DNA of 64,000 bases from Claveliimonas bilis (GTDB lineage Bacteria > Bacillota > Clostridia > Lachnospirales > Lachnospiraceae), in assembly GCF_030296775.1 (NCBI RefSeq), contig NZ_AP027742.1, positions 310,001 through 374,000 of the forward strand, in the 5' to 3' direction. The position numbers and the translations under genes are program-made. The notes beneath the pieces were generated by a model, which saw only the letters and a program-made list of their open reading frames with translations, made no database searches and had not been told where the DNA came from. Below are positions 1 through 36,466 of the stretch, in pieces. Position 1 is the stretch's first letter, and each line of letters starts with the position of its first letter.

Positions 1-117
1 ATGGGAATTGACTCTGAGGGTATGCTGATCTCAGCAGTACATGAGGAGGACGGCCATGAAGGACTGAATCTTCTGATGGTGGATGACAGGATCCCGGCAG
101 GAGCGAAGCTCTACTAG
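1..117 (+). CDS. metG: 3' end of metG-type gene (C-terminal tRNA-binding domain), partial
   Basis: The window opens inside this gene. The last 38 residues (MGIDSEGMLIS onward, ending GAKLY) are the end of the OB-fold tRNA-binding domain found at the C-terminus of many bacterial methionyl-tRNA synthetases, where it helps grip the tRNA. The frame is open to the stop at 115-117 and is followed by a strong terminator at 149-183. The same peptide recurs in the fragment at 35687-36202. The nucleotide differences between the copies suggest that this left copy was brought by the element and restores the gene. A separate tRNA-binding protein instead of MetG cannot be excluded because the catalytic part is outside the window. 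Confidence 0.7.
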   Translation: MGIDSEGMLISAVHEEDGHEGLNLLMVDDRIPAGAKLY

Positions 118-148
118 AAAATATTTGAATAAATATCGGATCAAATGG

Positions 149-183
149 AATCCCTCTTTTTGCCTTTGGCTGAAAGAGGGATT
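149..183 (+). terminator. Intrinsic terminator after metG, left copy
   Basis: An 11-bp perfect stem (AATCCCTCTTT pairing with AAAGAGGGATT, 149-159 with 173-183) with a 13-base loop is followed by TTTCTG. It sits 32 bp after the metG stop and is duplicated at 36234-36268. Confidence 0.8.
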
Positions 184-217
184 TTCTGAAAAAGAAATGA
201 AATAAGGAGAGATAAGT

Positions 218-400
218 ATGAAACGTTACATGAACATGGCTTTGTTGTATGCTGTTTTGGCAATGGTTGGAGGAGTGTTTTATCGGGAGTTTACCAAGAT
301 AAACGGATTTACTGTTAAAACGACGCTTGCAGTGGTACATACCCATTATTTCCTTCTCGGTGTGGTATTCTTCCTTTTGCTAGTGATTGTGCCATTTTAG
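218..400 (+). pseudogene. Truncated DUF2871 membrane protein, left copy
   Basis: The first 54 or so residues (MKRYMNMALLYAVLAM, then GGVFYREFTKINGF) are the start of a DUF2871-family integral membrane protein, nearly identical to the intact 156-residue gene at 36303. Homology ends at base 381, and the frame stops at 398-400 after six unrelated residues. The transmembrane helices of the C-terminal half are missing, so this is a remnant made by the element junction. It keeps its ribosome site (AGGAG near 205) and may still be translated. Confidence 0.9.
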
Positions 401-830: not shown

Positions 831-1154
831 CTTTTTATGCTGAAAAAGCGTAATGTATGAAATTAATAGTAGAATCAATTTTGGATTGATATTCTGGTGA
901 TAATGGGCTGAAAAGCATAGCAGCTATTTATATGCTGATTTTGTATGAAAAGCTAGATAAAAGTGAGCATCTATAGTCAATCACAGAAAGAGGGAGTATA
1001 ATCGAGATATGAAAATAAGATTGCTTATGGGACAGTAAAAGACTGAAGATACGGGAACTTTAGGATGAATGCCGTTTAAATAACAGATATTATATTTGTG
1101 TGCTCTTTTTTGGTACGGTTTGTTTGAAAAGAATAGTAAACGGAGGATTGTGTT

Positions 1155-4100
1155 ATGTGTAAAAAGGAAAATGAAAATGTTACTGTGGGAGTTTGCGATG
1201 AATTAGCTGTTGAAAAATCAAGTAGTGCTGATTCATATATTACTGAGTACATTCAAATTGATGAATTGCTTTCTGATAATGTTGAAATGTCTGCTTCGTA
1301 TAGTATAGGCATTATTATTGTGTTTGGGAAAAAGAAAGCGTTTATATCAGATATTTATTTTGATAAAAAATATTTCTCCAATCTTGAAATAAATTCTAAA
1401 AAAAATATTATGTTTTCGACAAAATACGCAACAATAATCCCCGAAGATATAAAAATACAAACATTTGAAAATGTATATCTAGTACGGTTTGTATTGGGAG
1501 GTAAAGAAATAAATGAAAAAACAGGATTTGAACAGCTTACAATCAATCATCAGTATCCTATAGAGATACTTCGTACTTATTCCAAAAAGCAATGTGTAAT
1601 GATGAAAGTATCAGAGAAAAATGTTTGTATAAAAACACTTAAGGAAGTTCCAAAGGATAAGTTGACTGATGAATTAAGGGAAGCAGTTGAGGAAGAATTG
1701 ATTCGTGAGATACAAACAGATGCTATTTTTTTCCCTTCATCATTTCCTAAATTGTTGAAAAAAGTTGGAATAGAAAACTATAGAAGATATGCTGATAGTA
1801 TAGAAGAATTTGTGAATTTATATTTGACTCCGAAGTTTTGCTTTCGCAAAAACATTGTAATTGGAGGAGTAAGGTATCCTAGCATTATTTTACTAGATAA
1901 CGGGCGGGATACGGATGAAGTTTTATTGGAACTGGTTTCTTCTAAGAAGATTAGCAATATCACATTGGATTCAGAAATTAAAGAAAAAATACAGAGGGAA
2001 TTGTTAGATTTTTTGGATGAAAATGGTGTAATATATGCTGCAAATTTTCCTAAAGTGTTACAGAAGATGGGAGTTGCCGATTACAAGAAATATGCAAGTA
2101 CAGTCGCAGGATTTGTAAAGAATTTCCTAGCTCCTAAATTTCGTTTTGAAAAAAATTATATTATCAATGGGAAAAAACACACAGGTGTAATTTTGATAAA
2201 CAATGAATCCGGAAATACTGATTCAAATTTTAAAACAATATTGGAGAATATACGCAAAAAAATAGAGGTGACTTTAGCAAAAAACATGTTTATTCAAGCA
2301 TCCTTGTTCCCGGATATTACAAAAACATGTGGTATGATTAATTTTAGAGATTACGCAGGAAGTGTGGAACTATTTATAAATACCTATTTGCCAGAGTATG
2401 AACTTAAAAAAAATGTTATTATCAGTGGTACGAAATATCCTGGATTAATAATTCGCCGTGGAGGTGAAATAGTAATAGATTATGAAAATGAGAATGGGGA
2501 AGTTAATAAGGAAAACGATAGCTCTACTGTAAATTACTACTTATTAGATCAATTATATGACGAGGGAAAGTATTATGAATATCTTTCGTCTGAAAGTATG
2601 GAAAAAATTAATTTTTGTGAATTGCCAATAGACTACATGGAGAAAACATTGTTTTGTGCTACACAATTATTATATCCAGATAAAAAAAATACTATTGTGC
2701 TTACCCCTTTTCATAAGGAACTCTTTAAGATAACCACATCACCTGAATTTGCGAAGAAATGGAAAGGTGATTCAGGATTTTCAAGTGAAATGATAGAACA
2801 ATGTGTTGATACTATGCTATTTTCCATCGAACTTCCTGTTGGAAATGCTATTGTTGTAGAAATGCTCAATAACATTGGATATTCTAGAACTCGTAATGAT
2901 AATTATGCAGGATTAACTAAACGATTTTCTTTATGCTATAATAATCTGACACCGCAGTTGTTTTTTATTAGGAGTTGTATTCATAAGGGTCAACCTGCTG
3001 TTGAAAAGGCTATTAGTGAATACATACAAATGGGAAAAGAGGCGTTGCAGTTAACCCATATTCCATTGGAAAACAAGAAAAACCTCTTGTGTTCTTTTAC
3101 TAATTTTTTAGTAGCTGTAGATAAATATATTTTTAAACTTGTTAATTTACCGGGACTTATGAAAACCAACATTATGTCGGTATATATCGATGCTGGAGAA
3201 TTGAAAGAACTTTTGAAAGTCACTGTTCTTTTGGAAGAAGATGAAGAGTCGGTGAATAACAAATTAATTAAATTATATTTCAGTTATGAAACATGTTGCG
3301 AAGAAGAAATTATTGAGTTGCTTGATAAAAAGGTAAGTTTACAACTCTTTCAGAAGATTATCTCCCTAATTTGGGAAAAGTTTGCAAATGAGAAAGAATT
3401 GCCTATTCAAATGCTTAATATTCTCTGCTGGGTATGTTTGAATGATAACGCTACGTCAATAGATGAAATATTACGTTTTCATATTATTAATAATAAATTC
3501 ACCAAATTGCATAAGCAAAAACAATTACTAAATTCGTTAGAGATTATTTATTCATTGACACAAGAAGATATATCAATGTATGTACTGTTATCCTATATTA
3601 CGACTATTGTTGCTCCAAATATGGATGAAGCTAGAATTTCTGAGGATAATTTCATAGCTATATCTAAGTGGAAGGAATACTCAAAAACAGTGGTTGATAA
3701 GATTTTCAGTGAATATGATAAGATTACTATTGAAAGAGAAAAAGACTTTGTTCAGTTGTTTAAAATTTTTAAATTAGATATTACGAATCAATTGAAGTTA
3801 CAGAAACATTATGCTGAATGGTATTTGAACAAATTGACGCTAACAGAATATAATGTAAACGAGATTAGGAAACTTCTTGATAATCTGTTTATGAAAAGAG
3901 CATATGAAGCATTCTCTGATGTTTATTTATTAGTTGAGAATATGTTCATCAATGAAGAAAGTTCAGAAATTATAATTCATGAATATATTTTATCATTAGT
4001 TGAACTTCAACGATATGTGGAGGCGATAACATATATCCAACAGAGTAATCGTATTACAAAAAATTTAAAAGAACAGTTATTGATTAATGTTATTATTGAA

Positions 4101-7100
4101 AACTTTAGAAATAATGGGATAAGTGCAAAAGCATTTGTTATTTTTGGGGATTCGTTTTCTATAGATTATGCAATTGAGTTATTGTTGGATAATATTCTGA
4201 CAAATCGTTATTACATCATTACTGGTTTAATAGCATTATATTGTAATCAGCAAGAATATATGAAGGTGTTATATCTATATCACATTTTTCAGTCAAAAAC
4301 TGAAAATGGATTTACTCGTTTGTATGCTCAGATTCGTAAGAAAATTAAGGATATAAATGGAAAATTAAGTAATCACTATGATGTTATAGAGTTGGCATTT
4401 TCAACATTATATTATGATGAATTAATGGATTTCCTCAAATGGACACAATTAATCAAAATTCCTAATTTCAAAGGATATAGGCCTACACATGCTTTTGCAT
4501 TTTTTTATAATAAAATTGTAGAAAATCCAACGGATGAAAAAACATGGACTTTGTTTTTAAGTCATTTATCAAAGCGTGTAGATATCAACGCATGGGCAAT
4601 TGTGGTCTGTGAAACAGTTTTATCAAAAAAAATTGGGTATAGTGGAAACTTAAATTCAAAATTTGCAATAAGAAATATTATTAATTTAACAAATCCACAA
4701 GAGTTGCCGTTTAACTTTTTGCCATATGTTTATGTATATTTACGTAGTACTAATGATCTGGAGATAGCTAGGGACGTTGGTTTGTTGCTGAAAAAGAAAG
4801 GTGCAACAGAACATTTAATTCAAGAGAATATTTGGAATCAAAGATATGCAAAAGTTATGGCAGAATTTAAAGGATTTTGCATTGAGCAATATAATAAGAC
4901 AGGAGATGTATCTTATTATATTATGATAGAAGCATTGGGGAGAGATTTAGAAATATCTGATTTGAAAAGCTTGGTTCGTATTTCCGGAGATAAAGCATAT
5001 GTATATAGACAAATATGTCATAATTATTTGATCTCAAAAAATACTGCTCAAACGATGGAATTATTAAATAGTTCAGAATGGAATGATATGACTTCTAGGG
5101 ATTCTGCCGTATTAAGTATTCTAAAAAAGGTATATACAGATAACGATGAGTTAATGTCATTAGAGCCTTTGCTTTGGGATGAAAGAAGTGTGGACAGATT
5201 TAAATATGATTGTGCGAAAATATTAAGTACATATCCGGAAAAAGATCAATTGTTTGCATTCGACAGTTCTTGTACTAATTTAAAATATAAGTTATTGGTG
5301 TACTCGTATATATTCAGCGTCTTATATGATGAAGATATTTATGATCGGTATGAAATGGAATATAAAGAGATATGTCAAGATGCACAATTATATAAAACCT
5401 ATTTGAGATTTTTGACAAGTTCGTTCTATGCCCAACTTGATTGGAATGTAGGATACTATTTCTTTTATAAAAAGTGGAGATATCTAAAATTATTCTTAGC
5501 CGGTGTTCTATATTCTAAGGAAAATTTTGACGATGGATTAATTGTATCTATCATGGAAAGAAAAGGGCATTACAATGATGTGTATAATGAAGCTTACATA
5601 CCATTTGTTAAAAATGTTAAAGATTTTATGGCATTTACCGATATTGAAGTCCAGGATAAAGAATACTTTCTATTCGCCTTAATGGAGGGGAAGCTGGGTA
5701 CATTTTTGAAAGAGAAAATTGGTATTCTAAAACAGTTCTCTGAAGATGAAAAAGAGGTGACTCGAAAGTTAATTGAACAAATTGATTATAGAGAAGCCAA
5801 TCGGTCCTTATATTTTTTGGTAAAGGAAGATATTGAAAGACACAATTATTCAAGTGCAATTAGTGTAGCCAAAGCGGTTTCACAGTACGCTTATGATACA
5901 ATTACGGCATTAATGGAAGATCTTAGTCTATCAGAAATAAGTCCATTGTTTGATGATATCGCATCGCAAGAAAAACCGAGCGAGGTTGTAAAAATGGTAT
6001 TAGAACTTGATACGCAAGTATTTAATAGACATGCAGCTGTTTTAATTCCTCTTATGTGTTCGCGACAATTTACATCACAAATATATGGAAATATACGACG
6101 TACAATTATACAACATAGTAAAACAGCTCCGCTTGTTCAATTGGGAAAATTAACAGAATATTTATCACGCTTTAACCATCAAGAAGCAATGGCAATTTTT
6201 AATTATATGTCCGCATTAAGAGCATGTATAGAGGAGGATCGAAACAATGCTAATGAGATCGCAACAAGTTGCGATATAAAGCAAGGAATTCCTATAGTAT
6301 GGAAACAAGAAGCAGATAATATTATTAGTTATGCATTAGGTAATGTACAAAAATTCAGGCCGGATCGAACCGTCCTTGATAGTAGTCAGGGAGCTTCAGC
6401 TGAAAAAAGAGATTTTTCTTTTATCAAGAAGTTGAAGGAAATGTTTGAGGTTGAGGACAAAATTCTTTCCTCAGAGAATGCACAGATGCTTGCTGAAAAA
6501 TACACGAATACATCTCTAACTTTAGAAGAAAGGCTTCAAGCAGCGGTAGAATTATTATGTAACTATCCCCAAATTAACGGGGAAAGAAATGATGGTACTA
6601 AGTTGCCTGCAAAAAATAGTTTGGTTCTGATGATTGGTTTGGATGCTATTTCTCCTGAAATAAGTCTTACGATTGAAGATCAACTGGAAATACTCAGTAA
6701 TCTTTATAGTAACCGGACTTTATTTTCCGAGCGGGGTGATTCTGCCAATTTAGTAAAATTAAATGAATGTTATGCTCAGTGTTTGAAGCGAAACATTTCT
6801 TTACAAGGATGGATTAATTATGCATCTGTAATTAGTGAATTTTTAAAGGATAATCATACAGGAACTGATTTTGAAGAATTAAGAAATAGAATTTTACGAC
6901 CAGCGGAAGCTTTACTTGACAGGAAAGTATCTTATGAAGAACGTTATGCAGGGTTTCGTAAATTAAAGACGATGTCACAAGACTTCGAAGAGTCTGTTTA
7001 TACTCGAAATGTGTTCGATTCAATTCAAACTGAGTGCAATAAGATAGAGGAAGGCGTCCAATTAAAGATAGATATTGTTAATTATAAGGATAAAATAACA

Positions 7101-9890
7101 GACGGTTATGTGTATTTTCTAATTGAAAATGTTGGAAAATGTACAGTAGATTTTCAGACAAAAGCTATTGAGGTGATATTAAAACAAGATAATCATCTTG
7201 GAAAGAAAATAGAAATTAATAATATATGTAATTTGCAGAGCGGATTTATTACGGGTGGAAAGGAACAATTAATTTTAAATGGATCGGAAAAATCGTTAAA
7301 CGTAAACATATCGATTATCAAAAAGGATAAAAGAGATAATTGGGATATTATCTGCTCAGCTGATAAGCCGCTGACAATTACAAACCCAGATAAGCGAATA
7401 GTTGTCAAAACACAGAATCGATATGAAGTAAAAAAGGCAGTAACTGATTCGGAAATGCTTTTTGGGAGGCAGGATCGGCAGGAAGTTTTAAGTGATACTA
7501 TTCCAACTGGTATTACGGTAATATATGGTCCATCTAGAATAGGAAAGACTTCTCTTATGAACTGGATTATGAATGATCTGGTTAAATCAAGAGGAAATGT
7601 TATGAGCATTATCTATGGTGGAGAAGGAGTCAGGGATGAAGAAAAGTATTATGAAAATAATTTTATTTCCCCATATTATCCAGTTCCTTATGATGATAAT
7701 GAAAAAATCTCGGAATATTTGCTGGTTAGCACTATAATTAAGAGTTTTACAGGAATAAGAAGATTAAGAAAGCCTGAGAAAAAAATGATTTCAGAGGAGG
7801 TTCTTCATAGAATTGTTCAAGTGTTGTCTGATGATAGTTTATCTATAATTGACCGGTATGATGAAATGAATGAGTTACTTGTTGCTCAGGAGATCGAATT
7901 ATGGATTTTACTTGATGAATTCCAACAAGTAGTAGAAAGATGGAAAAAAGTGGATTTATCTTGTGAATTTGTCAAGATATGTAAGATGCTTTCGTATGAT
8001 AGCCAGAATATGAACATAAAATTGATTGTTTGTGGATCCGACGATTTACTTCGACATATGATTCTTGAAGATAAATCTGTCTGGAGACAGGCATTTCCTT
8101 CGGATGCTCGAGTTGCGGTGGAACCGCTTCAAGAAAAGCCATTTATGAATATGATAAAGAACAGTAAAAACATTAGAGGAACAAACTTAATTTATTCAGA
8201 TTCAGCACTGCAAGCATTATATGCTTATACGGGTGGAGTTGCACTGTATGGGAAAGAAATCTGTAATGTTATTATAGAGGACATTATAGCAAATCCAGAC
8301 AAATATGCGAAACGAAAGGTTATATATGCTTCTGATGTAGCAGAGGCAACTCAGCGACTTATTGAACAACAAGAATCAAAATTAGCGGAACGATCAAGAA
8401 TTCGCGAGATTTATGAGGCAGTGACAAAAAATTTAAGACGGGATTCAGACATGCAGTATCTTTGGTACATAGCGCAGTGGTTACATACGAATACTCATCA
8501 AGATGGTTTCTCGGTAGATGAGTTTTCAAAGAAGGGAATTCTTCGAGATGAAAAAGAGATGCATGATTCTCTAGAAATTGCAGTTGCAAGAGGTATTTTG
8601 AGGGAAAAAGATTCTAAAAAAGATGGTCATATACGTTATGTTTTTAGGACTATTTTCTATTATTTTGCATTTCTTGGAAGCGCAGATGATAATTTTGATG
8701 AAAAGAAAATTTACCAAGAGGAGCAAGTAAGTCAACAATCCGAATTTGACAATAAAGAAGGATTATCCGTTGACCAAAAATTATTGGTTTATTTTTCTAA
8801 ACAAAATGCTTTGAGGCAAGCTCAATTGTTGGGTGGTCTGTTGCCGATAATTCATGATGACGCCAAAGCAAATATACGAAAAATTGTTGGTGATTGGTTC
8901 GGTGGTGATAAGTACCATAATGAGGTGCATATTAATGTTCAAAATATTACTAATACTTTGAGACAAATTGTATTGAATAATCCAGTTCCTTTACAGAATG
9001 GGAAATTGCTTCCTTCTTTGGAGGAGTATATTCCAGAATGTATTTCGGAAGAAAACCAAAAGAGAATAAATGATTTACGCGCTGAAATTGATGAGTTATC
9101 AGATGACCCCGATGCACAATCGGAGATTCGAGAAAAAGAGCAAGAATTGGAAGAACTTATGCTTCCGGCGGAAAAAGAATATACAAATGATTGTAGTAAG
9201 GCTGTTCTTGATGTTGCTTTAGAAGAAGACATTTCAGATATTCAGGATAATTACAGTATTATCAATTTGACAAAAGAAATGGTATTATCGATAAAAGAAT
9301 GTCTTCCGGAAAAATTTCATTTACAATATGAGTTTACAATATTGTTACATAAATTATTATATAAGTATAAAGAAGATAATGGAAAAGAGATTGATTTTTG
9401 TCCTGTAGCATTAATGTATTGTAAACTAATAGAAGGGTTGTTAAAAGAGTATCATGCCCGGATTTATTCTCTTCGATTATCAGATAAGGCAAAAAATCCG
9501 ATTACTATTGGAGATAAGAGATACTTTTGGAACGAATTTTTAGATGATAATGGAGAATTTGACTCGGAAAAATTTAGAAGGCTTAATTCGACAATGGGTA
9601 ATTTTACATTTCATATTGGATATTTTAATGACAAATCTGATCTTAGCAAAGGGATTGGAAGAAAAAAACCTAATATTAGACTTTTATCTACCCCTGTAGG
9701 CAATCAGAACCCAGAAGAAGAACTTAAAAAACAGTGGGAAGAACATACGGATGCAATAATGTATATTTATTTTTATCGAAATAATCTTGCCCATAATCTC
9801 GACCCTATAACAAGTAAAGAAATGGATGAGATCACAAAAATATTGTTTAATCAAGGAGAATTCGAACGTATTATCAACTTAGGTCGTTGA
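1155..9890 (+). CDS. Giant LOTUS-like / helical-repeat / STAND NTPase / HEPN protein, candidate anti-phage factor
   Basis: This 2911-residue protein has a GGAGGA ribosome site 7 bases before ATG. Domains seen: an uncharacterised N-terminus (1-165); three repeats of about 90 residues (about 171-265, 270-352, 358-440) sharing the pattern FPK(L/V)L.K.G...Y..YA.(S/T)...FV, which resemble OST-HTH/LOTUS winged helices; a long helical, probably TPR-like scaffold (about 460-1960); a beta-rich CARDB-like segment (about 1966-2090); and a P-loop NTPase with Walker A GPSRIGKTS (2125-2133) and Walker B LLDEFQ (2252-2257). Next come a coiled coil (about 2631-2672) and a C-terminal domain with the HEPN-type motif RNNLAH (R2875 to H2880). 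Known: STAND NTPases with helical sensors and nuclease effectors, such as Avs, recognise phage proteins; HEPN domains with Rx4-6H are often RNases. Inferred: the scaffold senses, the NTPase switches and HEPN cuts RNA. It stands alone, with no toxin-antitoxin partner next to it. Confidence 0.75.
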   Translation: MCKKENENVTVGVCDELAVEKSSSADSYITEYIQIDELLSDNVEMSASYSIGIIIVFGKKKAFISDIYFDKKYFSNLEINSKKNIMFSTKYATIIPEDIKIQTFENVYLVRFVLGGKEINEKTGFEQLTINHQYPIEILRTYSKKQCVMMKVSEKNVCIKTLKEVPKDKLTDELREAVEEELIREIQTDAIFFPSSFPKLLKKVGIENYRRYADSIEEFVNLYLTPKFCFRKNIVIGGVRYPSIILLDNGRDTDEVLLELVSSKKISNITLDSEIKEKIQRELLDFLDENGVIYAANFPKVLQKMGVADYKKYASTVAGFVKNFLAPKFRFEKNYIINGKKHTGVILINNESGNTDSNFKTILENIRKKIEVTLAKNMFIQASLFPDITKTCGMINFRDYAGSVELFINTYLPEYELKKNVIISGTKYPGLIIRRGGEIVIDYENENGEVNKENDSSTVNYYLLDQLYDEGKYYEYLSSESMEKINFCELPIDYMEKTLFCATQLLYPDKKNTIVLTPFHKELFKITTSPEFAKKWKGDSGFSSEMIEQCVDTMLFSIELPVGNAIVVEMLNNIGYSRTRNDNYAGLTKRFSLCYNNLTPQLFFIRSCIHKGQPAVEKAISEYIQMGKEALQLTHIPLENKKNLLCSFTNFLVAVDKYIFKLVNLPGLMKTNIMSVYIDAGELKELLKVTVLLEEDEESVNNKLIKLYFSYETCCEEEIIELLDKKVSLQLFQKIISLIWEKFANEKELPIQMLNILCWVCLNDNATSIDEILRFHIINNKFTKLHKQKQLLNSLEIIYSLTQEDISMYVLLSYITTIVAPNMDEARISEDNFIAISKWKEYSKTVVDKIFSEYDKITIEREKDFVQLFKIFKLDITNQLKLQKHYAEWYLNKLTLTEYNVNEIRKLLDNLFMKRAYEAFSDVYLLVENMFINEESSEIIIHEYILSLVELQRYVEAITYIQQSNRITKNLKEQLLINVIIENFRNNGISAKAFVIFGDSFSIDYAIELLLDNILTNRYYIITGLIALYCNQQEYMKVLYLYHIFQSKTENGFTRLYAQIRKKIKDINGKLSNHYDVIELAFSTLYYDELMDFLKWTQLIKIPNFKGYRPTHAFAFFYNKIVENPTDEKTWTLFLSHLSKRVDINAWAIVVCETVLSKKIGYSGNLNSKFAIRNIINLTNPQELPFNFLPYVYVYLRSTNDLEIARDVGLLLKKKGATEHLIQENIWNQRYAKVMAEFKGFCIEQYNKTGDVSYYIMIEALGRDLEISDLKSLVRISGDKAYVYRQICHNYLISKNTAQTMELLNSSEWNDMTSRDSAVLSILKKVYTDNDELMSLEPLLWDERSVDRFKYDCAKILSTYPEKDQLFAFDSSCTNLKYKLLVYSYIFSVLYDEDIYDRYEMEYKEICQDAQLYKTYLRFLTSSFYAQLDWNVGYYFFYKKWRYLKLFLAGVLYSKENFDDGLIVSIMERKGHYNDVYNEAYIPFVKNVKDFMAFTDIEVQDKEYFLFALMEGKLGTFLKEKIGILKQFSEDEKEVTRKLIEQIDYREANRSLYFLVKEDIERHNYSSAISVAKAVSQYAYDTITALMEDLSLSEISPLFDDIASQEKPSEVVKMVLELDTQVFNRHAAVLIPLMCSRQFTSQIYGNIRRTIIQHSKTAPLVQLGKLTEYLSRFNHQEAMAIFNYMSALRACIEEDRNNANEIATSCDIKQGIPIVWKQEADNIISYALGNVQKFRPDRTVLDSSQGASAEKRDFSFIKKLKEMFEVEDKILSSENAQMLAEKYTNTSLTLEERLQAAVELLCNYPQINGERNDGTKLPAKNSLVLMIGLDAISPEISLTIEDQLEILSNLYSNRTLFSERGDSANLVKLNECYAQCLKRNISLQGWINYASVISEFLKDNHTGTDFEELRNRILRPAEALLDRKVSYEERYAGFRKLKTMSQDFEESVYTRNVFDSIQTECNKIEEGVQLKIDIVNYKDKITDGYVYFLIENVGKCTVDFQTKAIEVILKQDNHLGKKIEINNICNLQSGFITGGKEQLILNGSEKSLNVNISIIKKDKRDNWDIICSADKPLTITNPDKRIVVKTQNRYEVKKAVTDSEMLFGRQDRQEVLSDTIPTGITVIYGPSRIGKTSLMNWIMNDLVKSRGNVMSIIYGGEGVRDEEKYYENNFISPYYPVPYDDNEKISEYLLVSTIIKSFTGIRRLRKPEKKMISEEVLHRIVQVLSDDSLSIIDRYDEMNELLVAQEIELWILLDEFQQVVERWKKVDLSCEFVKICKMLSYDSQNMNIKLIVCGSDDLLRHMILEDKSVWRQAFPSDARVAVEPLQEKPFMNMIKNSKNIRGTNLIYSDSALQALYAYTGGVALYGKEICNVIIEDIIANPDKYAKRKVIYASDVAEATQRLIEQQESKLAERSRIREIYEAVTKNLRRDSDMQYLWYIAQWLHTNTHQDGFSVDEFSKKGILRDEKEMHDSLEIAVARGILREKDSKKDGHIRYVFRTIFYYFAFLGSADDNFDEKKIYQEEQVSQQSEFDNKEGLSVDQKLLVYFSKQNALRQAQLLGGLLPIIHDDAKANIRKIVGDWFGGDKYHNEVHINVQNITNTLRQIVLNNPVPLQNGKLLPSLEEYIPECISEENQKRINDLRAEIDELSDDPDAQSEIREKEQELEELMLPAEKEYTNDCSKAVLDVALEEDISDIQDNYSIINLTKEMVLSIKECLPEKFHLQYEFTILLHKLLYKYKEDNGKEIDFCPVALMYCKLIEGLLKEYHARIYSLRLSDKAKNPITIGDKRYFWNEFLDDNGEFDSEKFRRLNSTMGNFTFHIGYFNDKSDLSKGIGRKKPNIRLLSTPVGNQNPEEELKKQWEEHTDAIMYIYFYRNNLAHNLDPITSKEMDEITKILFNQGEFERIINLGR

Positions 9891-18718: not shown

Positions 18719-19471
18719 ATGAAAGAGTTTAATTTAGTTTTAACCCCGGGAGTTGAAGATAACGACAAAATTGTATTAGAGTTTATTAATGAAAAATATG
18801 GGGAAATATCATGGTCTTTTTACTCCTTACCATATGTACCCCCCTATCAAGAAAATTGGGAAGGAATTATAAACTATGAAAAAGTCTGTCGATATCACCC
18901 ATTTTCAGATGAATCTCAGGAAAAAACGGTTGTCATAGATTTGAAAGAGTGGATTTTGGAAGATCGAATCCACGAAGATTTTCTTAATATTTTTTTTATG
19001 TATCTTCATGATCAACATTCATATTTTAACCTAAGATATGTTTTTACGGTTGGAGCATATGGGGAGGGGGACGTAAGAGAATTAATCATTCTACTTTCTA
19101 AGTATTTTGAAAAAGGTTGTATAACGGTTAATCGAGTTTTTCAAAATACAGAAGAACTAGAACATTACATAAGTACGAAACATAAACGTATTTCCAAAGA
19201 GCTGATAGCGAAGATGGCAGGTATGATTATTGAAGCTAAAGAAAAAGTTGGCGGCATATCACAGTTAGATTCACTGCTTGCAGGATTAGAAAATTCCATT
19301 TCTAGAACAAGTACATGGATTGATGAACAACTATTAATTCAGAGCGCAAAAGAGGTAAGGACAACGGGATTTTATATGCTTTATGACGAAGAAATGGAAA
19401 AAATATTGAGAGGGTATGAAAAAAGTAGTAAAGAACATAAAGATTCTATTGGAAAGGGGAGAATCGTTTGA
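18719..19471 (+). CDS. Hypothetical soluble protein
   Basis: A 250-residue protein; ATG 18719 follows AGGAGGG. The N-terminal half is mixed alpha/beta with LRYVFTVGAYGEGDVRELI, which looks like a Rossmann-type strand-loop-helix; the C-terminal half is helical. No catalytic motif seen. It overlaps the next gene's reading frame closely (the coupling ATPase starts 3 bp after the stop), so it may be a chaperone or adaptor of that ATPase. That role is inference from position alone. Confidence 0.6.
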   Translation: MKEFNLVLTPGVEDNDKIVLEFINEKYGEISWSFYSLPYVPPYQENWEGIINYEKVCRYHPFSDESQEKTVVIDLKEWILEDRIHEDFLNIFFMYLHDQHSYFNLRYVFTVGAYGEGDVRELIILLSKYFEKGCITVNRVFQNTEELEHYISTKHKRISKELIAKMAGMIIEAKEKVGGISQLDSLLAGLENSISRTSTWIDEQLLIQSAKEVRTTGFYMLYDEEMEKILRGYEKSSKEHKDSIGKGRIV

Positions 19472-19473
19472 TT

Positions 19474-21180
19474 ATGAGTAAAAACAGAAACTATGATTAT
19501 GAATCTATTTGGAGACAATATGCAAATCAAGAGGAAAATCAGCGTTTTTTATCTAATCGACCAGAAGATCTTTTAAAGATATGTGATGTGTATGATTTCA
19601 AAGCTAAGGAACATCCGCATATAGCAGCAGGAATACCAGTTCATTACGATCTAATTCAGCATAAACTTTACTGCCTTCGATACGGACCACATGTACGTAT
19701 CAGTGGTGAATCTGGAAACAAAAAATCACGCTGTGTTGTTCGACCGAAAATATTAAGTTGTGTATTAAATGATAGATGTTCCTTTGTAGTAAACGATCCT
19801 AAGGGAGAACTCTATGCTGATCCTGCAATCATTCATTTGTTACAAACAAATGGATATGAAGTCCATTGTATCAATCTACGTAACTTTAGCGGTGATGGAT
19901 TAAATGTTTTGGCTCCTGTAATTACATTTTTGAAAGCGGGAGAAAAAACTAAGGCAAATATTTATCTTGAAAAATTTCTCGGAAATCTTTTAAAAAATAA
20001 CCCAGCAAAAGATCCTTTTTGGCCAAAAGAAGGACAACGCCTTAATCGTTTGATTATAGATATCTTAAAAATGTTACTTATAAATACAACCGGTGAGGAA
20101 GAAAAGTTTAACTTAGCATCTGTCAAATCTTTTATTCGTATGGATTTTGCTTACATAAAGCAGATTGCGGAGATGTTATTGGAGATTATGCCAAAGAATG
20201 TACCTTATAACCCAGTACGAGAGCTGTTGAATATTCTTGGTGCTGCAGAAAATACGGTGCGCTCTGTTATTATTTCCGCTAGTGCCTTGATTGAGGAATT
20301 TGCAGTATGTGAGGCTTTGTTGAAACAGATATCAATTTCGACTTTTGAACCAAGAGATATGTATAAAAAACCGATGGCGCTTTTTTTTATCATTCCCGAT
20401 GAGACAACAGGAATGGACTGCGTGGCATCATATTTGATGGATGTAGTGTATCAAGAATTAATCGATGAATATACGAATCGATATAGAGACAAGCCTGAGG
20501 GGGCACCGAAAGACGTTCACTTTATCATAGATGAGTGTTCTAATACTTTTGTCCCCAATTTGGGAAGTAAGGTTAGCATCAGTAGATCACGTCAAATTTA
20601 CTTTAGTATAGTGTATCAAAGTGATGATGGTATGGTGGCAACATATGAAAAGGATTGGTTAAATATTAAATACAATATGAAAGCTCATATTTTTCTGGGA
20701 AACAGCAGTGTAGATGTGTTAAAGCAGATTTCTGAAGAAGCCGGTAATATTGCTTTATCAAAAGAGCAGAAAACCGTTCCAGCAGTTTCAATTGATGATC
20801 TTAGACATATGAAAAAGACAAGAACATACAAAGATGCATTAGTTATAGTTGGAGATTATTTATATGCAGCAAAATTACCAGATTATGAAGTCTATCCGAT
20901 GCTTGCTGAAACGAACGAATTTGAACCGTGGCATGATAATTTAGAAGATTTTGATTTTAGTGTTTTCACGCCGGAAAACTTATTTTCACAGCTTATATCA
21001 GGAGAAATTTCATTTGAAGAGGCAGAGATACAAGAAGTGAAAAAAAATTCAAAGTCAGATAAAAAGGAGAAGAATACTAAGAAGACAACAAATGAAGAAG
21101 AAATCACTGAAGATGATGTAGAGGAAAAACTTTCAGAATTATATGATGAATTGTTCGGAGGTACAGAAGATGATTCCTAA
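19474..21180 (+). CDS. VirD4/TraG-family coupling ATPase with altered Walker A
   Basis: A 568-residue protein; ATG 19474 is preferred to TTG 19468 (GGGGAG upstream). Seen: the VirD4 hallmark order of a phosphate loop region (SGESGNKKSR, about 77-86), VVNDPKGELY, and Walker B HFIIDECSN (D353) followed by SRSRQIYFSIVYQSDDGM. The phosphate loop has Lys in place of the last Gly of GxxxxGK(S/T), so nucleotide binding may be changed. It lacks the N-terminal membrane helices of most VirD4 proteins, and ends in a very acidic, Lys-rich tail (about 515-568). Known: VirD4 proteins bring the relaxase-DNA complex or effectors to a type IV channel. No channel ATPase (VirB4) is found nearby. Confidence 0.8.
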   Translation: MSKNRNYDYESIWRQYANQEENQRFLSNRPEDLLKICDVYDFKAKEHPHIAAGIPVHYDLIQHKLYCLRYGPHVRISGESGNKKSRCVVRPKILSCVLNDRCSFVVNDPKGELYADPAIIHLLQTNGYEVHCINLRNFSGDGLNVLAPVITFLKAGEKTKANIYLEKFLGNLLKNNPAKDPFWPKEGQRLNRLIIDILKMLLINTTGEEEKFNLASVKSFIRMDFAYIKQIAEMLLEIMPKNVPYNPVRELLNILGAAENTVRSVIISASALIEEFAVCEALLKQISISTFEPRDMYKKPMALFFIIPDETTGMDCVASYLMDVVYQELIDEYTNRYRDKPEGAPKDVHFIIDECSNTFVPNLGSKVSISRSRQIYFSIVYQSDDGMVATYEKDWLNIKYNMKAHIFLGNSSVDVLKQISEEAGNIALSKEQKTVPAVSIDDLRHMKKTRTYKDALVIVGDYLYAAKLPDYEVYPMLAETNEFEPWHDNLEDFDFSVFTPENLFSQLISGEISFEEAEIQEVKKNSKSDKKEKNTKKTTNEEEITEDDVEEKLSELYDELFGGTEDDS

Positions 21181-25725: not shown

Positions 25726-26169
25726 TCATTTCTGTCGCCCTGCTCTTATTAAAAAGTATTCTCCGGTACTTCCGAAGGATCCTTTGTCTCTGGATTTTCC
25801 TAAATCCAACACAAAATCAGTAATCAATATCGGTGTAATGACCAGTTGGCCCACCCGGGTATCCTTATGTAGTGTTTGTGGTGTGGAGCTTACATTGCTG
25901 ATGATGGCATGGATTTCGCCTCTGTAACCTGAATCAATAGGTGGAAGTTCACATACAAGACCTTTTGCAGCCATGCTGCTTCGTGGAAATACATATCCGG
26001 CGAAACCATCAGGAATTACCAGTCCAAACCCCAGAGGAATTCTGGCAATTTCTCCCGGTTCTAAGGTACAGTCATAGGGCATGAATACATCCGCGCCGGC
26101 ATCATTTTCATGTGGTCAGAATGGATGGTGATCAGCTTTAAGACCAAAATCAATAAGTTTAATCTTCAT
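25726..26169 (-). pseudogene. dut: dUTPase gene with an internal TGA stop
   Basis: Read from ATG 26169 the protein begins MKIKLIDFGLKADHHPF, hits TGA at 26118-26116 (codon 18), then continues in frame with PHENDAGADVF, the first dUTPase motif, and on through PRSSMAAKG, the uridine-binding GYRGEIHAIISN, and GKSRDKGSFGSTG, the last motif. The family usually has Arg before the P of this region, so a single CGA-to-TGA change would explain the stop. A downstream ATG at 26082 would omit motif 1 and probably give an inactive enzyme. The last eight or so residues come from the IS end. dUTPase lowers dUTP and supplies dUMP, the ThyX substrate made by the neighbouring gene. Confidence 0.8.
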
Positions 26170-26935
26170 GCATGTGCCTCCTTTCCAAAAGAATTGGATA
26201 ATCTTCTTTTAAGATATCAGCTGGGATCCATAATTTAGGGATAGACCGCTTACAGGACATTTTTCCTTCTTTACATTCGCCTCTTTGACAAAACGGACCG
26301 GTGAGATCTGGAGCAAATAACGCAGGGCTGAGATTGTACAGCTTTTGCCAGATATTTAGCATAACGATTCTAGTCTCGTCTGTATTTCTCCGGCAGGTAC
26401 GTTGCCCAATCATATGTTTCCATTGGTAAGGAGTGGCACTGATAACTAAAACATTTCTTAGTCCTTGTGGAGTAGCATATGCGGCAGCATCATGGCTGAT
26501 TCCTGTGTTACAGAGCTGTTCATAACAACTTAGATCAGACTGACAGCTTTTCATATATAAATCTTGGATTTCTTTTCCGGCAGTCAGAATTTCATATGGA
26601 ACTGCGAACATTGCCTTTCCGGAATAATTACTGTACTGTAAAGAAGCACTCATACATTTTACTTCATTTTGGTGTCTGGTTATCTGTGTAAGAAAACGTC
26701 TGCTGGCACCTACTACAGCAACCGTGATCACAGTAAATTTCTGTACTGTAGGATGCGGAAGGTTCGCAATGTTTTTCAGCGTTTCATTACTGAATGATTT
26801 CTGATAGAGATTCAACAGGTCTTTCATGTCACGAATGGTATGTCCATGCTGCGTTAGTGTTGCAGTAAAGACCATATTCTGTTCTGCTTTCCGGACGGCA
26901 ATGCAGTTCAGGATTTCTGTTTCAATGTGATCCAT
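26159..26935 (-). CDS. thyX: Divergent flavin-dependent thymidylate synthase (ThyX)
   Basis: A 258-residue protein, overlapping both the upstream Nmad1-like remnant and the downstream dut remnant. The ThyX signature region is present in altered form: ITRHQNEVKCMSASLQYSNY in place of RHR-x7-S, keeping R, H and the S.QYS part. The C-terminal block TPYQWKHMIGQRTCRRNTDE, then TRIVMLNIWQKL, sits where ThyX proteins bind FAD and dUMP. An extra Cys-rich tail follows (FCQRGECKEGKMSC). Known: ThyX methylates dUMP with methylene-THF, NADPH and FAD. The changed second Arg of RHR may affect activity. It is the only intact gene of this small nucleotide operon. Confidence 0.75.
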   Translation of the reverse strand: MDHIETEILNCIAVRKAEQNMVFTATLTQHGHTIRDMKDLLNLYQKSFSNETLKNIANLPHPTVQKFTVITVAVVGASRRFLTQITRHQNEVKCMSASLQYSNYSGKAMFAVPYEILTAGKEIQDLYMKSCQSDLSCYEQLCNTGISHDAAAYATPQGLRNVLVISATPYQWKHMIGQRTCRRNTDETRIVMLNIWQKLYNLSPALFAPDLTGPFCQRGECKEGKMSCKRSIPKLWIPADILKEDYPILLERRHMHED

Positions 26936-27265: not shown

Positions 27266-28810
27266 TTATCGTTCTTGATGGTATGTTCTTTGTGCTTTTG
27301 GAATCTGCATCCGAAGAATCGCATCTACGTTTTTATCTGCAGTTTCCAGCTCTTTTTGTTTTTCCTTTAAAGACTGAATGGAGATTTTTTGAGACTGGAT
27401 CTTGTCCAGTAATTTTTTTCTGAGATTTCATAACATTCATGGAATGCATTTTTCCATCCGGATAAAAAGATTTCAGCCAGTCTCTTGCATCTTCATATGC
27501 CTGAATGTCTGCGGAATGCTCTTTACGGAATTTCCATTTATTCTTGCTTTTTAAAATTGGGAATACAGTTTCTTGTTTGTAAAGTATTGACCGGTATAGC
27601 GGATCTGAAGGTTTACGGTTTCTAATTCTGCTGTATATTGTCTGAGCAGATTTTCCATTTCTCCAAGTTTGTTGGTTATTTTGGAAAGATGTTTTTTCAG
27701 ATCATGCTGCGTGTTATATCCATGCTCCTGAATATAGATGATAGTATTTGCCATCTGTTGCAGATTGGTAATCTTTACACGATGGGCATAAGCTGGACTT
27801 TGCATTGCTTTTACATTTGTCTGGAGATCTACAACCAGCCGTAGAGGAGATTGGATATGGAAAATCAGGAAAGGATCCCTATGCAAAAAGATCTGTTCCA
27901 GTCGTTCTTTTCCATAACGGGTTCCAAGAGAACGCTCCGTAATCCTTTTATCACGATCTGGATGGAGATAACTGTATCGACCCCTTTGTTCAACCACAGA
28001 AATATGATACTGCTCCAAAAGTCTGGCTTGGAATTCTTCAAAGTTATTAGAGTGTGCAGCACAGTCCTCAATGGCAGTCCGTAATTCTTGTTTTTGCGTC
28101 TGGAAAACGGATGACAATGGTTCCAGTCCATCTGTGAGAATTTTCTTATTTATCTTTTCCAGTTTTTTCTGTCCGGACTGTTGAGCCATATATTCTTTCA
28201 GCGTGATCTTTTTCTCTGCAGGTGAGAGCAGATCAATCTGATGCAGACCTTCCTGAAGACACATATCCATAACTCCTTTTTTGAAATACTCCAAAAACTT
28301 GTCGGTGGAACGGTGTTCATATCCGGCTTCATGGTCATGAGGCTGCGTCATATAAGATTCCCGTTCAGCAGAATATTTCCGGACACTGTTTATTACGATG
28401 TGTGTATGAATGTTTCCGGATTGATTGTGTCCATCTATGTGAGTAACTATAAGAGCCTGATAGCCAGGAAATATTTTTTTGGCAAGTTCCAAACATAAGA
28501 ATTGTGCTTTTTCTCCGGTCAGTCTACATTCTGTCACATCGGCAGGATCAAAACTGATAATGTAGTGATGGCTTTTGATTTCAGAACTTTTTTGGTTTTT
28601 ATAGAATTTTGAATTTGTCATTTCACATTCTTTATCAAAAGACATGGGATCACAGTTGATGCCACTCATATAAAAGTGTTCTCTAAGAATACTTCTGCCC
28701 AACTCATCCCAGATTTTTTCTCCTGTTTTTTCATCGTGCTGAAAGAGCAGATACTCAATTGCATCTGAGTAATTCGCATTTCGGCTTTTAATATGTTTCA
28801 GGATTGCCAT
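27266..28810 (-). pseudogene. MOBP-type relaxase with two frameshifts near the 3' end
   Basis: Intact for about 418 residues: MAILKHIKSRNANYSDAIEY (candidate nucleophile Tyr), then HIDGHNQSGNIHTHIVINSV (the HxDxx...HxH metal site) and a helical C-terminal part. A 1-nt loss near 27559-27561 stops the frame at 27553-27551. The next frame continues as KSKNKWKFRKEHSADIQAYE to MKSQKK, and a 7-A run (27413-27419 on the plus strand) shifts again to LLDKIQSQKISIQSLKEKQK, ending HQER at 27268-27266. The two shifts cancel, so the original was about 515 residues. The catalytic N-terminal part is whole and may still nick. GTG 28819 is an alternative start. It overlaps mobC. Confidence 0.85.
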
Positions 28811-29174
28811 TTGTTTCACCTGCCATTTTTAACACTTTTTTTCTTAGGAGAAAAAGATCGGAAATACATTGATGAATTTCTTCTTCGACAGCACGAGAGC
28901 GGTCTCCGCCACTGTTAAAATACCGGGCAATCTGATTCAGATTAGAACCAATCTTGCCATATTCGCTGACTAGCTTGCGAAGTATTTTTATATCTGCAAC
29001 AATTTCTATACGATTACAAATTTCTTTTTCTATTAATAGTTTGCGAAGATACTCTGACCGAGAGACACCCAAAATGGAAGCGTTCTGATCTAAGAGTTCT
29101 ATTTCAATATCTGATAATCGTACAGCCACAAAATGTGGATGAAGTAGTTCTAATTGCTTTTTACTTGTTTTCAT
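28788..29174 (-). CDS. mobC: MobC-family relaxosome accessory protein
   Basis: A 128-residue protein; ATG 29174 (MKTSKKQLELLHPHF) follows AGGAGG. The N-terminal ribbon-helix-helix part (VAVRLSDIEIELLDQNASIL, GVSRSEYLRKLL) and the C-terminal LVSEYGKIGSNLNQIARYFN, FNSGG match MobC/BmpH-type mobilisation proteins. These bind near oriT and help the relaxase melt and nick the DNA. The stop overlaps the relaxase start, the usual arrangement. A hairpin-rich stretch lies directly upstream. Confidence 0.9.
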   Translation of the reverse strand: MKTSKKQLELLHPHFVAVRLSDIEIELLDQNASILGVSRSEYLRKLLIEKEICNRIEIVADIKILRKLVSEYGKIGSNLNQIARYFNSGGDRSRAVEEEIHQCISDLFLLRKKVLKMAGETNGNPETY

Positions 29175-29953: not shown

Positions 29954-30066
29954 AAGTGTGTTATTTTACATGGATGGTACGTTTGTGACATTCTAGATTA
30001 TATTATACAATTCTCCGGGGGATGCAATATTTAGGGCATTGGAGAGAGAAAGGATCTGAGGAGGTT

Positions 30067-34356: not shown

Positions 34357-35592
34357 ATGGCAAAGACAAGGAAAGACCTGCGTGGAAGGGTATTGAGAAA
34401 AGGAGAGGTGCAAAGATCGTCAGATAAGCGGTATATGTACACTTATACGGATCCGCTTGGAAGACGAAAATTCATATATGCAAATGATTTAGCGGAACTT
34501 CGGGAAAAAGAAGAAAAACTTCTGAAAGATCAATTGGATGGATTAGATTTATATGTTGCTGGAAAAGCCAGTCTGAATGATACGTTTGACCGATATATAT
34601 CAACGAAACATAATCTGAGGGAATCAACCAAAAGCTCGTACACCTATACATACGATCATTATGTACGTGGAACATTTGGTCAGAAACGGATTGCGGAAAT
34701 AAAGTATTCAGATGTTCTTCAATTTTATTATTATCTTCTTAATCAGAAGAATATTTCGTTAGGAACGCTGGATACGGTACACTGTCTGTTACATCCTACA
34801 TTTCAGCTGGCGGTAAGAGATGAAATAATCCGTAAGAATCCGACAGATGGTGTGATGAAAGAGATTAGCCGTGAATCTGGAAAAAACAGAGGTGCACGTC
34901 ATGCTCTGACGGTTGACCAGCAGAGGAAATTCATGGAGTATATTGCGAATCATCCGATTTATTTTCACTGGTGGCCGATGTTCACAGTTTTGTTAGGAAC
35001 CGGATGCAGAATAGGAGAAGCATTAGGACTTCGCTGGCAGGATCTGGATTTTGACAATAGAGTGATAAGTATCAACCACAGCATTGTCTACTATCCGATG
35101 AATGGAAGCAATAAAAGTGTTTTGAGAGTAGCATTACCGAAAACAGATGCAGGTATCAGGACAATTCCGATGCTTGATATCGTAAAGGATGCCTTTGAAA
35201 TGCTTTATGAAGAACAGCAGGAAACTGGTTTTAATGAAACAGAGATAGACGGAATGTCCGGTTTTATCTTTTGTAACCGGTTTGGTTCAGTGCCGAATCC
35301 GCAGACTGTGAATCACACAATCAAGCGCATTGCAAATAATTATAATGCAGAAGAAGTTGTGCAGGCCAAAAAAGAGAACCGAGATCCAGTGATTCTTCCA
35401 AATTTTTCGTGTCATCATTTGCGACATACATTTTGTACCAGACTTTGTGAAAATGAAACAAATTTAAAAGTCATCCAGTCCATTATGGGGCATAAGAATA
35501 TTGAAACCACACTGGACATTTATGCGGAAGCAACAGAGAAAAAGAAACAGGAATCATTTGAGAATTTGGCTGCCAAATTAGATATCTTTTAA
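34357..35592 (+). CDS. int: Tyrosine recombinase, Tn916/Tn1549-type integrase
   Basis: A 411-residue protein with a GGAGG ribosome site. The N-terminal arm-binding domain (GRVLRKGEVQRSSDKRYMYT, DPLGRRKFIYAND), a SAM-like core-binding domain (about 70-180) and the catalytic domain are all present. Catalytic residues: Arg in GTGCRIGEALGLRW, His-x-x-Arg in HHLRHTFCTRL, the GHKNIETT helix and Tyr in LDIYAEAT. It integrates and excises the element through a Holliday junction. It lies at the right end, followed within 25-65 bp by three 12-bp repeats that look like its arm sites. Confidence 0.95.
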   Translation: MAKTRKDLRGRVLRKGEVQRSSDKRYMYTYTDPLGRRKFIYANDLAELREKEEKLLKDQLDGLDLYVAGKASLNDTFDRYISTKHNLRESTKSSYTYTYDHYVRGTFGQKRIAEIKYSDVLQFYYYLLNQKNISLGTLDTVHCLLHPTFQLAVRDEIIRKNPTDGVMKEISRESGKNRGARHALTVDQQRKFMEYIANHPIYFHWWPMFTVLLGTGCRIGEALGLRWQDLDFDNRVISINHSIVYYPMNGSNKSVLRVALPKTDAGIRTIPMLDIVKDAFEMLYEEQQETGFNETEIDGMSGFIFCNRFGSVPNPQTVNHTIKRIANNYNAEEVVQAKKENRDPVILPNFSCHHLRHTFCTRLCENETNLKVIQSIMGHKNIETTLDIYAEATEKKKQESFENLAAKLDIF

Positions 35593-35686: not shown

Positions 35687-36202
35687 GTGAGTAATATCCA
35701 TATTCAGTTGCAAGTCGGAATAAGTGATCACGAAGAGATCATAAAATATTTCCCGACAATGAAGTCACAGGGCGCAGCAAAGCACGCTGCAAATAATGAA
35801 AGCCAGGCAGCACCGGCAGCGAAGATCGACTTCTCCAACGTGAAGATCGAGCCCCTCTTTGAAGAGATGGTAGATTTTGAGACATTTGCAAAATCCGATT
35901 ACCGTGCTGTGAAGATCCTGGCATGTGAGGCTGTGCCCAAGAGCAAAAAGCTTTTGAAATTTACTCTGGATGACGGCGTTCGCAAGGACCGCGTGATCTT
36001 AAGCGGTATTCACGAGTATTACGAGCCGGAAGAACTGGTTGGAAAGACAGCGATTGCTATCGTAAACCTGCCGCCGAGAAAGATGATGGGAATTGACTCT
36101 GAGGGGATGCTGATCTCAGCTGTACATGAGGAGGACGGCCATGAAGGACTGAATCTTCTGATGGTGGATGACAGGATCCCGGCAGGAGCGAAGCTCTACT
36201 AG
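35687..36202 (+). pseudogene. metG: Headless 3' fragment of metG (tRNA-binding domain)
   Basis: A stop at 35675-35677 precedes a GTG at 35687, from which a 171-residue frame runs to 36202. Residues about 60-171 are the MetG C-terminal tRNA-binding domain (VDFETFAKSDYRAVKILACE, HEYYEPEELVGKTAIAIVNL, then MMGIDSEGMLIS). No catalytic domain precedes it: the sequence upstream is the element's end. It is best seen as the original chromosomal metG 3' end cut off by integration. GTG-driven translation without a good ribosome site seems unlikely. A naturally short tRNA-binding protein is the alternative. Confidence 0.7.
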
Positions 36203-36466
36203 AAAATATTTGAATAAATATCGGATCAAATTGAATCCCTCTTTTTGCCTTTGGCTGAAAGAGGGATTTTCTGAAAAAGAAATGAAATAAGGAGAGATAA
36301 GTATGAAACGTTACATGAACATGGCTTTGTTGTATGCTGTTTTGGCAATGGTTGGAGGAGTGTTTTATCGGGAGTTTACCAAGATAAACGGATTTACTGC
36401 TAAAACGACACTTGCAGTGGTACATACCCATTATTTCCTTCTCGGCATGGTATTCTTCCTTTTGCT
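36086..36466 (+). repeat. Right copy of the flanking duplication
   Basis: Matches 1-381 at about 98 percent. The homology may begin at or before 35,690, since the metG fragment already reads from there; its left partner would lie outside the window, giving a duplication of roughly 0.78 kb or more. This copy runs on into the whole DUF2871 gene, so it is the resident chromosomal copy. Confidence 0.95.
36234..36268 (+). terminator. metG terminator, right copy
   Basis: The same 11-bp perfect stem and 13-base loop as at 149-183, followed by TTTCTG. It separates the metG fragment from the DUF2871 gene. Confidence 0.8.

Follow-up and report, generated by a model that had tools for sequence, protein, structure and literature searches.

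The window, by which we mean the whole stretch of 64,000 nucleotides analysed, contains a single uninterrupted ATG frame on the forward strand between positions 1155 and 9890 that encodes a protein of 2911 residues, here called P0001. The frame is real and intact. It has no internal stop, as the first-pass annotation had read it, and P0001 was recovered at 100% from its own genome, a single contig of 3.11 Mb. The features of the protein and of its surroundings are listed in Table 1.

As read from the sequence, the segment between positions 1 and 36466 is a ~36-kb integrative element of the mobilizable type, putatively mobile and inserted in the 3′ end of lysS. It combines an integrase, a relaxase and attachment repeats with a known insertion target: lysS, which ends at position 117 of the window (read in locus L013), is described as an ICE target in streptococci (PMC4701971). 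The VirD4-like protein also matches the NCBIfam CD1115 family (1.5e-50, 172.4 bits), under the cut-off of 250. The GC content amounts to 30–34% in the first 10 kb and to 42–49% beyond 36 kb. P0001 is the first ORF of at least 100 aa inside the left attachment repeat, at the left end of the element, and the next gene, which starts 203 bases after it, is HTH repressor-like and probably belongs to the element itself.

Between 17448 and 23557, genes for an M48 peptidase, the VirD4-like protein, ClpP, a guanylate kinase-like and a weakly SprT-like protein follow one another, an odd run for an integrative element, and dUTPase and ThyX genes lie on the minus strand at 25726–26935. Towards the element's right-hand boundary, positions 30022–33651 encode a 1209-aa protein that is possibly a second conflict protein; it has no Pfam or PADLOC match at an E value of 0.01. 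P0001 has no match in the second genome of the species (G343), where the genes that come after lysS look, on reading, like reverse transcriptases. A related integrase and a lysS fragment also occur in a further genome of the genus (G005), and the genes lying beyond that fragment look, on reading, like type I restriction-modification genes (L055:9200-13601).

Table 1 Features of P0001 and of the element that carries it, with window coordinates
Feature	Residues	Position	Strand	Basis
Left attachment repeat		1..381	+	374/381 identical to 36086-36466
Shine-Dalgarno GGAGG		1142..1146	+	8 nt before ATG, direct reading
D1 domain	29-165	1239..1649	+	common to giants of two-gene system
Winged-helix repeat 1	169-256	1659..1922	+	alignment; AlphaFold2
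Repeat 2	267-354	1953..2216	+	local alignment
Repeat 3	360-440	2232..2474	+	local alignment
Long, probably helical region	446-1930	2490..6944	+	composition, periodicity
Beta-rich domain, weakly supported	1957-2052	7023..7310	+	Pfam Arch_flagellin
STAND-type P-loop NTPase	2117-2362	7503..8240	+	Pfam ATPase_2
Walker A GPSRIGKTS	2125-2133	7527..7553	+	motif reading
Walker B LLDEF	2252-2256	7908..7922	+	motif reading
Post-NTPase segment like end of nSTAND_NTPase4	2468-2505	8556..8669	+	Pfam
Probable HEPN core	2858-2895	9726..9839	+	Csm6, DUF4145, below cut-off
RNNLAH, HEPN-type Rx4H	2875-2880	9777..9794	+	motif reading
VirD4-like coupling protein		19468..21180	+	Pfam T4SS-DNA_transf 1.9e-17, over cut-off
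MobA/VirD2-type relaxase		27551..28819	-	Pfam Relaxase 3.6e-16
Tyrosine integrase		34357..35592	+	Pfam Phage_integrase 1.6e-31; Integrase_DNA (Tn916) 1.8e-19
Duplicated lysS 3′ fragment		35687..36202	+	translation; 35750-36201 87% match to lysS of G343
Right attachment repeat		36086..36466	+	pairs with 1..381

D1, the winged-helix repeats and the middle region

The first domain of P0001, D1, is shared with the giant proteins of a two-gene system found in other Clostridia (see below). The pairwise BLASTP alignment covers 170 aa at 29% with an E value of 4e-13, and hhalign relates the domains with a probability of 96.5% and an E value of 8.9e-10. We considered a cold-shock fold for D1 and dropped it because the z scores against four segment types of these giants (24 comparisons) were only −1.3 to 2.9 and a PDB match was absent.

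D1 is followed by three repeats of ~85 aa each. Their local alignment scores of 177, 136 and 114 compare with maxima of 49, 45 and 48 among 500 shuffles each, corresponding to an excess of 30, 23 and 17 SD. Structure prediction, which the first-pass annotation had recommended for the repeats, the NTPase region and the tail, was informative for the repeats: the AlphaFold2 model of repeat 1, calculated on an alignment whose three rows are the three repeats, reaches a pLDDT of 85.7, and its three main helices follow one another and alternate with four short strands in the order of a winged helix. Foldseek comparison of this model with the PDB gave only loose matches (best E = 0.61), including KAT6A, SAMD1 and ROQ domains; a fold search of BFVD gave no match below an E value of 0.001. 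The three repeats are modelled as a clean set of winged helices for which the searches performed here returned no named relative.

The winged helix is the fold class of LOTUS, and the repeats had been annotated as three LOTUS-like units. Their repetition is firmly supported by the alignments above; their identity as LOTUS is not. When the repeats were scanned at E values up to 5, the Pfam family OST-HTH (PF12872) did not appear, and their best Pfam match is to the unrelated APC1_3rd at 0.0057, below cut-off. PF12872 is found in 63 of 120 genomes of the family at an E value of 0.05 and over cut-off in 60. The host genome itself holds two OST-HTH copies in a 311-aa frame (C1:1226680-1227096), detected by the same whole-genome search that gave no match at the P0001 locus at an E value of 0.05. 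We further derived a local alignment of OST-HTH domains from 18 of 20 fetched Lachnospiraceae loci (L045 and L047 were omitted without substantive reason), and the HMM calculated from these 18 domains matched nowhere in P0001. By hhalign, the repeats and OST-HTH are colinear over 66 columns, yet the score is also reached by 10 of 200 shuffles of the columns. No LOTUS entry is present among the best 50 of the 115 PDB fold matches of the repeat model, a search performed without a true-LOTUS positive control. After three negative sequence tests, we rejected the LOTUS label and kept the term winged helix, because the local HMM was silent and the profile score was no better than that of shuffles.

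The ~1500 residues that follow the three repeats had been described as helical repeats. Both composition (2.0% Pro and 2.9% Gly) and periodicity are compatible with this description: relative to shuffles, strand-type periodicity lies 2.5 SD below and helix-type periodicity 1.7 SD above, with 0.3 to 2.1 SD for the individual thirds. This periodicity is soft evidence since the test discriminates poorly and does not flag residues 1931–2095 as strand-rich. Scanning of the whole protein assigned no Pfam family to residues 446–1930 at an E value of 0.1, the piece 446–1000 gave none at 5, and no repeat family was identified. The beta-rich domain annotated ahead of the NTPase comes down to one match, to Arch_flagellin (E = 2.4e-4, 21.9 bits, below the cut-off of 29.5). 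We take this likeness to the archaellin beta fold as a hint at the type of fold only.

The NTPase and the C-terminal tail

The P-loop NTPase that had been read from its two Walker motifs is confirmed, with both motifs present and Pfam ATPase_2 above cut-off (for the whole protein, E = 2.7e-11 and 44.2 bits, the cut-off being 33.2; for the piece alone, E = 9.1e-13). Judged from profile and motifs, the domain is a member of the ATPase_2/nSTAND class. We take ATPase_2 to belong to STAND, and we use the label STAND-type because ATPase_2 exceeds its cut-off and because the NTPase is followed by a segment weakly resembling the end of nSTAND_NTPase4 (E = 0.0093, 16.5 bits, below the cut-off of 27), which is a candidate C-terminal winged helix.

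The C-terminal tail had been annotated as an RNase of the HEPN type. The motif on which this annotation was based, RNNLAH, is present; the usual HEPN motif is Rx4H in which R is followed by a polar residue (PMC3710099). We scanned the tail alone against two libraries. NCBIfam (E up to 0.1) returned a single family, Csm6 (E = 0.02; 14 bits, with the cut-off at 150). Pfam (E up to 5) likewise returned a single family, DUF4145, with E values of 0.21, 0.13 and 0.059 for three cuts of the tail, the lowest for the last 92 residues and none reaching the cut-off of 23.1 bits. Both families are listed as HEPN families in PMC3710099. Both matches sit on RNNLAH, and the two signals are therefore not independent. 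HEPN families gave no match when the whole of P0001 was scanned, and a PDB sequence search with the tail (E up to 10) yielded no HEPN protein among 8 matches, all of which are to a primase subunit with E values of 0.18 and worse. The single-sequence structure model of the tail has a pLDDT of 40.7, and an all-helical form is not seen in so weak a model. A search with the DUF4145 profile found matches in 5 of 13 genomes and none in the host genome.

How much weight the motif can bear depends on where it is counted. The form R[NDH]xxxH is expected 0.21 times in the whole of P0001 and 0.007 times in its last 100 residues; for the plain form Rx4H, the expectation over the protein is 1.5. At least one R[NDH]xxxH occurs in 385 of 2000 shuffles of P0001, so that RNNLAH alone is not rare in a protein of this length; what is rare is its placement within the last 40 residues. 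These numbers bear on an alternative in which RNNLAH arose by chance, the tail is not a HEPN RNase, and P0001 is a STAND-type regulator, for instance one of transcription or one that binds RNA, acting via its winged helices. The low quality of the tail model, the profile matches below cut-off and the frequency of the motif in shuffles are what such a protein would show, whereas the position of the motif and the return of only HEPN families by two libraries, though both via the same motif, are not readily accounted for. We regard this alternative as unlikely and consider the tail, by judgement, to be a putative HEPN domain, an assignment that we think is likely correct. Overall, P0001 is a real giant NTPase protein, rare and carried on a putatively mobile element, with a probable HEPN tail and with verified repeats that are modelled as winged helices.

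Relatives of P0001 and a two-gene system

We searched for homologues and their neighbourhoods, as the first-pass annotation had proposed, and found no homologue of the whole architecture; relatives of D1 were found in a two-gene system. Whole P0001 has no match in plasmids, phages or IMG/VR. Its own genome is the only one matched among 98 genomes of relatives and among 398 genomes of the phylum, and of 397 genomes of the family two are matched, its own and G412, the latter over D1 only. The three samples overlap, and this first look scored few candidates per genome (at most two in the rows listed for family and phylum).

Searches with individual parts of the protein gave a similar picture. The repeat region matches in 3 of 200 genomes, its own included; we rejected the match at L007, which contains stops and is found opposite an ORF that looks like a transporter, and that at L008, where a 147-aa ORF does not read as related. 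A tail of 295 aa matches in 2 of 250 genomes (its own and L012) and a tail of 247 aa in 1 of 299 (its own), and the L012 match (E = 0.006) was rejected as a coiled-coil-like ORF. The D1 alignment matches in 4 of 196 genomes, namely its own and three with short matches (E = 0.0015 to 0.0099) that we take as chance because they span only 23 to 48 of 138 positions. Scans of IMG/VR with D1, the repeats, the tail, the NTPase and the partner protein of the two-gene system gave no match, and plasmids gave none with the tail and the repeats at an E value of 1. Scans of IMG/VR and genome_contigs depend on short patterns, and distant relatives escape them. In PADLOC, P0001 matches no Avs model at an E value of 0.1 and only mad8 (E = 0.014), on the P-loop. 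Two of nine neighbours of P0001 match PADLOC models, RmrA at 4.5e-12 on the HTH part (65 of 400 positions) and mad8 at 4.1e-6 on the ATPase part; seven other element genes have no match at an E value of 0.01.

The presence of whole P0001 in no sampled genome but its own would also suit a protein that serves the element, an exclusion or stabilisation device that uses the same NTPase/RNase machinery to harm cells gaining a competing element or losing their own. The position of P0001 as the first ORF inside the left attachment repeat points in the same direction. An antitoxin-like partner tied to P0001, however, was not found, the next gene being repressor-like, and we hold this possibility to be improbable.

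Two D1 patterns run against genome_contigs (84,980 species) retrieved two loci, L009 and L010, both from other Clostridia. This number is a lower bound because near-exact short patterns are needed. L010 is from Lachnospiraceae bacterium UBA1753, and the D1 gene of G412 belongs to the same pair of 2021-aa and 648-aa ORFs. At both loci, a giant protein (2021 and 2086 aa, 38% identical) is encoded directly before an NTPase protein (648 or 624 aa, 42% identical), and the partner NTPase proteins contain an invariant CRNxSxHLN, a HEPN-type motif. The L009 partner matches HEPN_Swt1 with an E value of 6.1e-4 as a whole protein and of 0.012 as a piece (16.3 bits, below the cut-off of 27.5), the L010 partner has no HEPN match, and neither of two comparisons aligned the partner HEPN with the tail of P0001. 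The giants also end in an NTPase, which hhalign relates weakly to that of P0001 (probability 36.7%). The two-gene system resembles P0001 in joining D1 and an NTPase in one giant protein and, by reading only, in its helical and beta-rich stretches. It differs in being made of two proteins, in having repeats that look cold-shock-like instead of the three winged helices and in carrying the HEPN motif on the partner. At L009 (5719–15876), the opposite strand just upstream carries genes for EcoRI (5.8e-129) and for an N6/N4 methylase (1e-54); on reading, the neighbours at L010 look like genes for transport, regulation and metabolism. No description of the P0001 architecture or of the two-gene system was found in the literature covered, a search thin on subscription papers and without bioRxiv.

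The repeats of the two-gene giants are cold-shock-like by eye, and we compared four segment types. For three types, z scores are 19.9 to 29.0 between proteins within a type and 0.9 to 7.9 between types, and the fourth type is not clearly related to these three (z = −0.3 to 4.2). Because the D1-bearing giants contain repeats with the look of RNA-binding modules, we also considered that P0001 might be a cellular factor for RNA quality control or stress, with no role in conflict. The mutual likeness of the three repeat types, their appearance and an LSM match below cut-off (0.0027) would agree with such a factor. We nevertheless consider it very unlikely, given that neither the giants nor two repeats scanned alone have a Pfam cold-shock match, that P0001 is rare in the samples and is cargo of a mobile element, and that restriction-modification genes lie beside one relative.

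Proposed function and comparison with known systems

The reading that we favour, to which we assign slightly less than an even chance, is that P0001 is a STAND-switched HEPN RNase, a single-chain conflict protein acting in defence or in competition between elements and carried as cargo of a mobile element. A role in conflict is made likelier by the integrative element that carries P0001 and by the kinship of D1 with a system of NTPase and HEPN motif, one copy of which lies beside EcoRI-type restriction-modification. The HEPN fold and its activity, the N-terminal sensor role, oligomerisation and the defence outcome are what we infer for the following scheme. In the resting state, the NTPase and the scaffold preceding it would keep the C-terminal HEPN RNase switched off. 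Recognition of a trigger by D1, the winged helices, the helical scaffold or a combination of these would induce an NTP-dependent rearrangement or oligomerisation. HEPN domains paired in this way would form an active site from their RNNLAH motifs and cut RNA, and the resulting growth stop would halt phage replication or a competing element.

A more specific form of this proposal, which we put forward tentatively and as one joint claim, describes P0001 as the fused counterpart of the two-gene system. The N-terminal winged helices and D1 would sense foreign nucleic acid, and the ~1500-residue scaffold and the STAND NTPase would license the C-terminal HEPN RNase, placing P0001 in a new class of single-chain immune proteins. 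If true, a sensor-first, effector-last STAND architecture would join bacterial immunity, linked to a two-gene system for which we found no description.

Several known systems share individual parts with P0001. OST-HTH/LOTUS proteins have repeats of the winged-helix type as P0001 does, but P0001 lacks a match to the OST-HTH profile; in TERNS3 effectors, OST-HTH is fused to S1 folds (PMC8195603). HEPN-STAND proteins with cold-shock-like OB folds, such as B. cereus gi 229028907, combine HEPN and STAND, in some cases along with RNA-binding modules, in a single bacterial protein (PMC3710099). In this type, HEPN is N-terminal and the OB fold C-terminal, whereas the probable HEPN of P0001 is at the C-terminus. 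The NTPase, cold-shock and HEPN parts of CoCoNuT systems are predicted to target RNA (PMC11090510); these systems are built on a McrB-type GTPase and McrC, for which our scans of P0001 gave no match.

The first-pass annotation had set P0001 apart as a reversal of the Avs arrangement and as a domain order for which it knew of no described system. Like Avs and other STAND immune proteins, P0001 places a STAND-type NTPase in a large multi-domain protein. The Avs order of N-terminal effector, central NTPase and C-terminal sensor (PMC12931631) is indeed not found in P0001, in which the probable effector is C-terminal, the NTPase occupies residues 2117–2362 of 2911, and neither pieces of residues 1–1000 nor the whole protein match an effector family over cut-off. 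The claim of an unprecedented order did not hold. In PrrC and RloC, which have a role in defence, an N-terminal NTPase controls a C-terminal HEPN RNase (PMC3710099). P0001, with its HEPN assignment being probable, shares this order of NTPase and C-terminal HEPN, and the reversed order is less novel than claimed because PrrC and RloC already place HEPN after the NTPase. Both PrrC and RloC are built on an SbcC/Rad50-like ABC NTPase and are not known to contain D1, repeats of winged helices or a giant helical region. An anti-virus role of P0001 is plausible, and its domain order is uncommon among the systems compared here.
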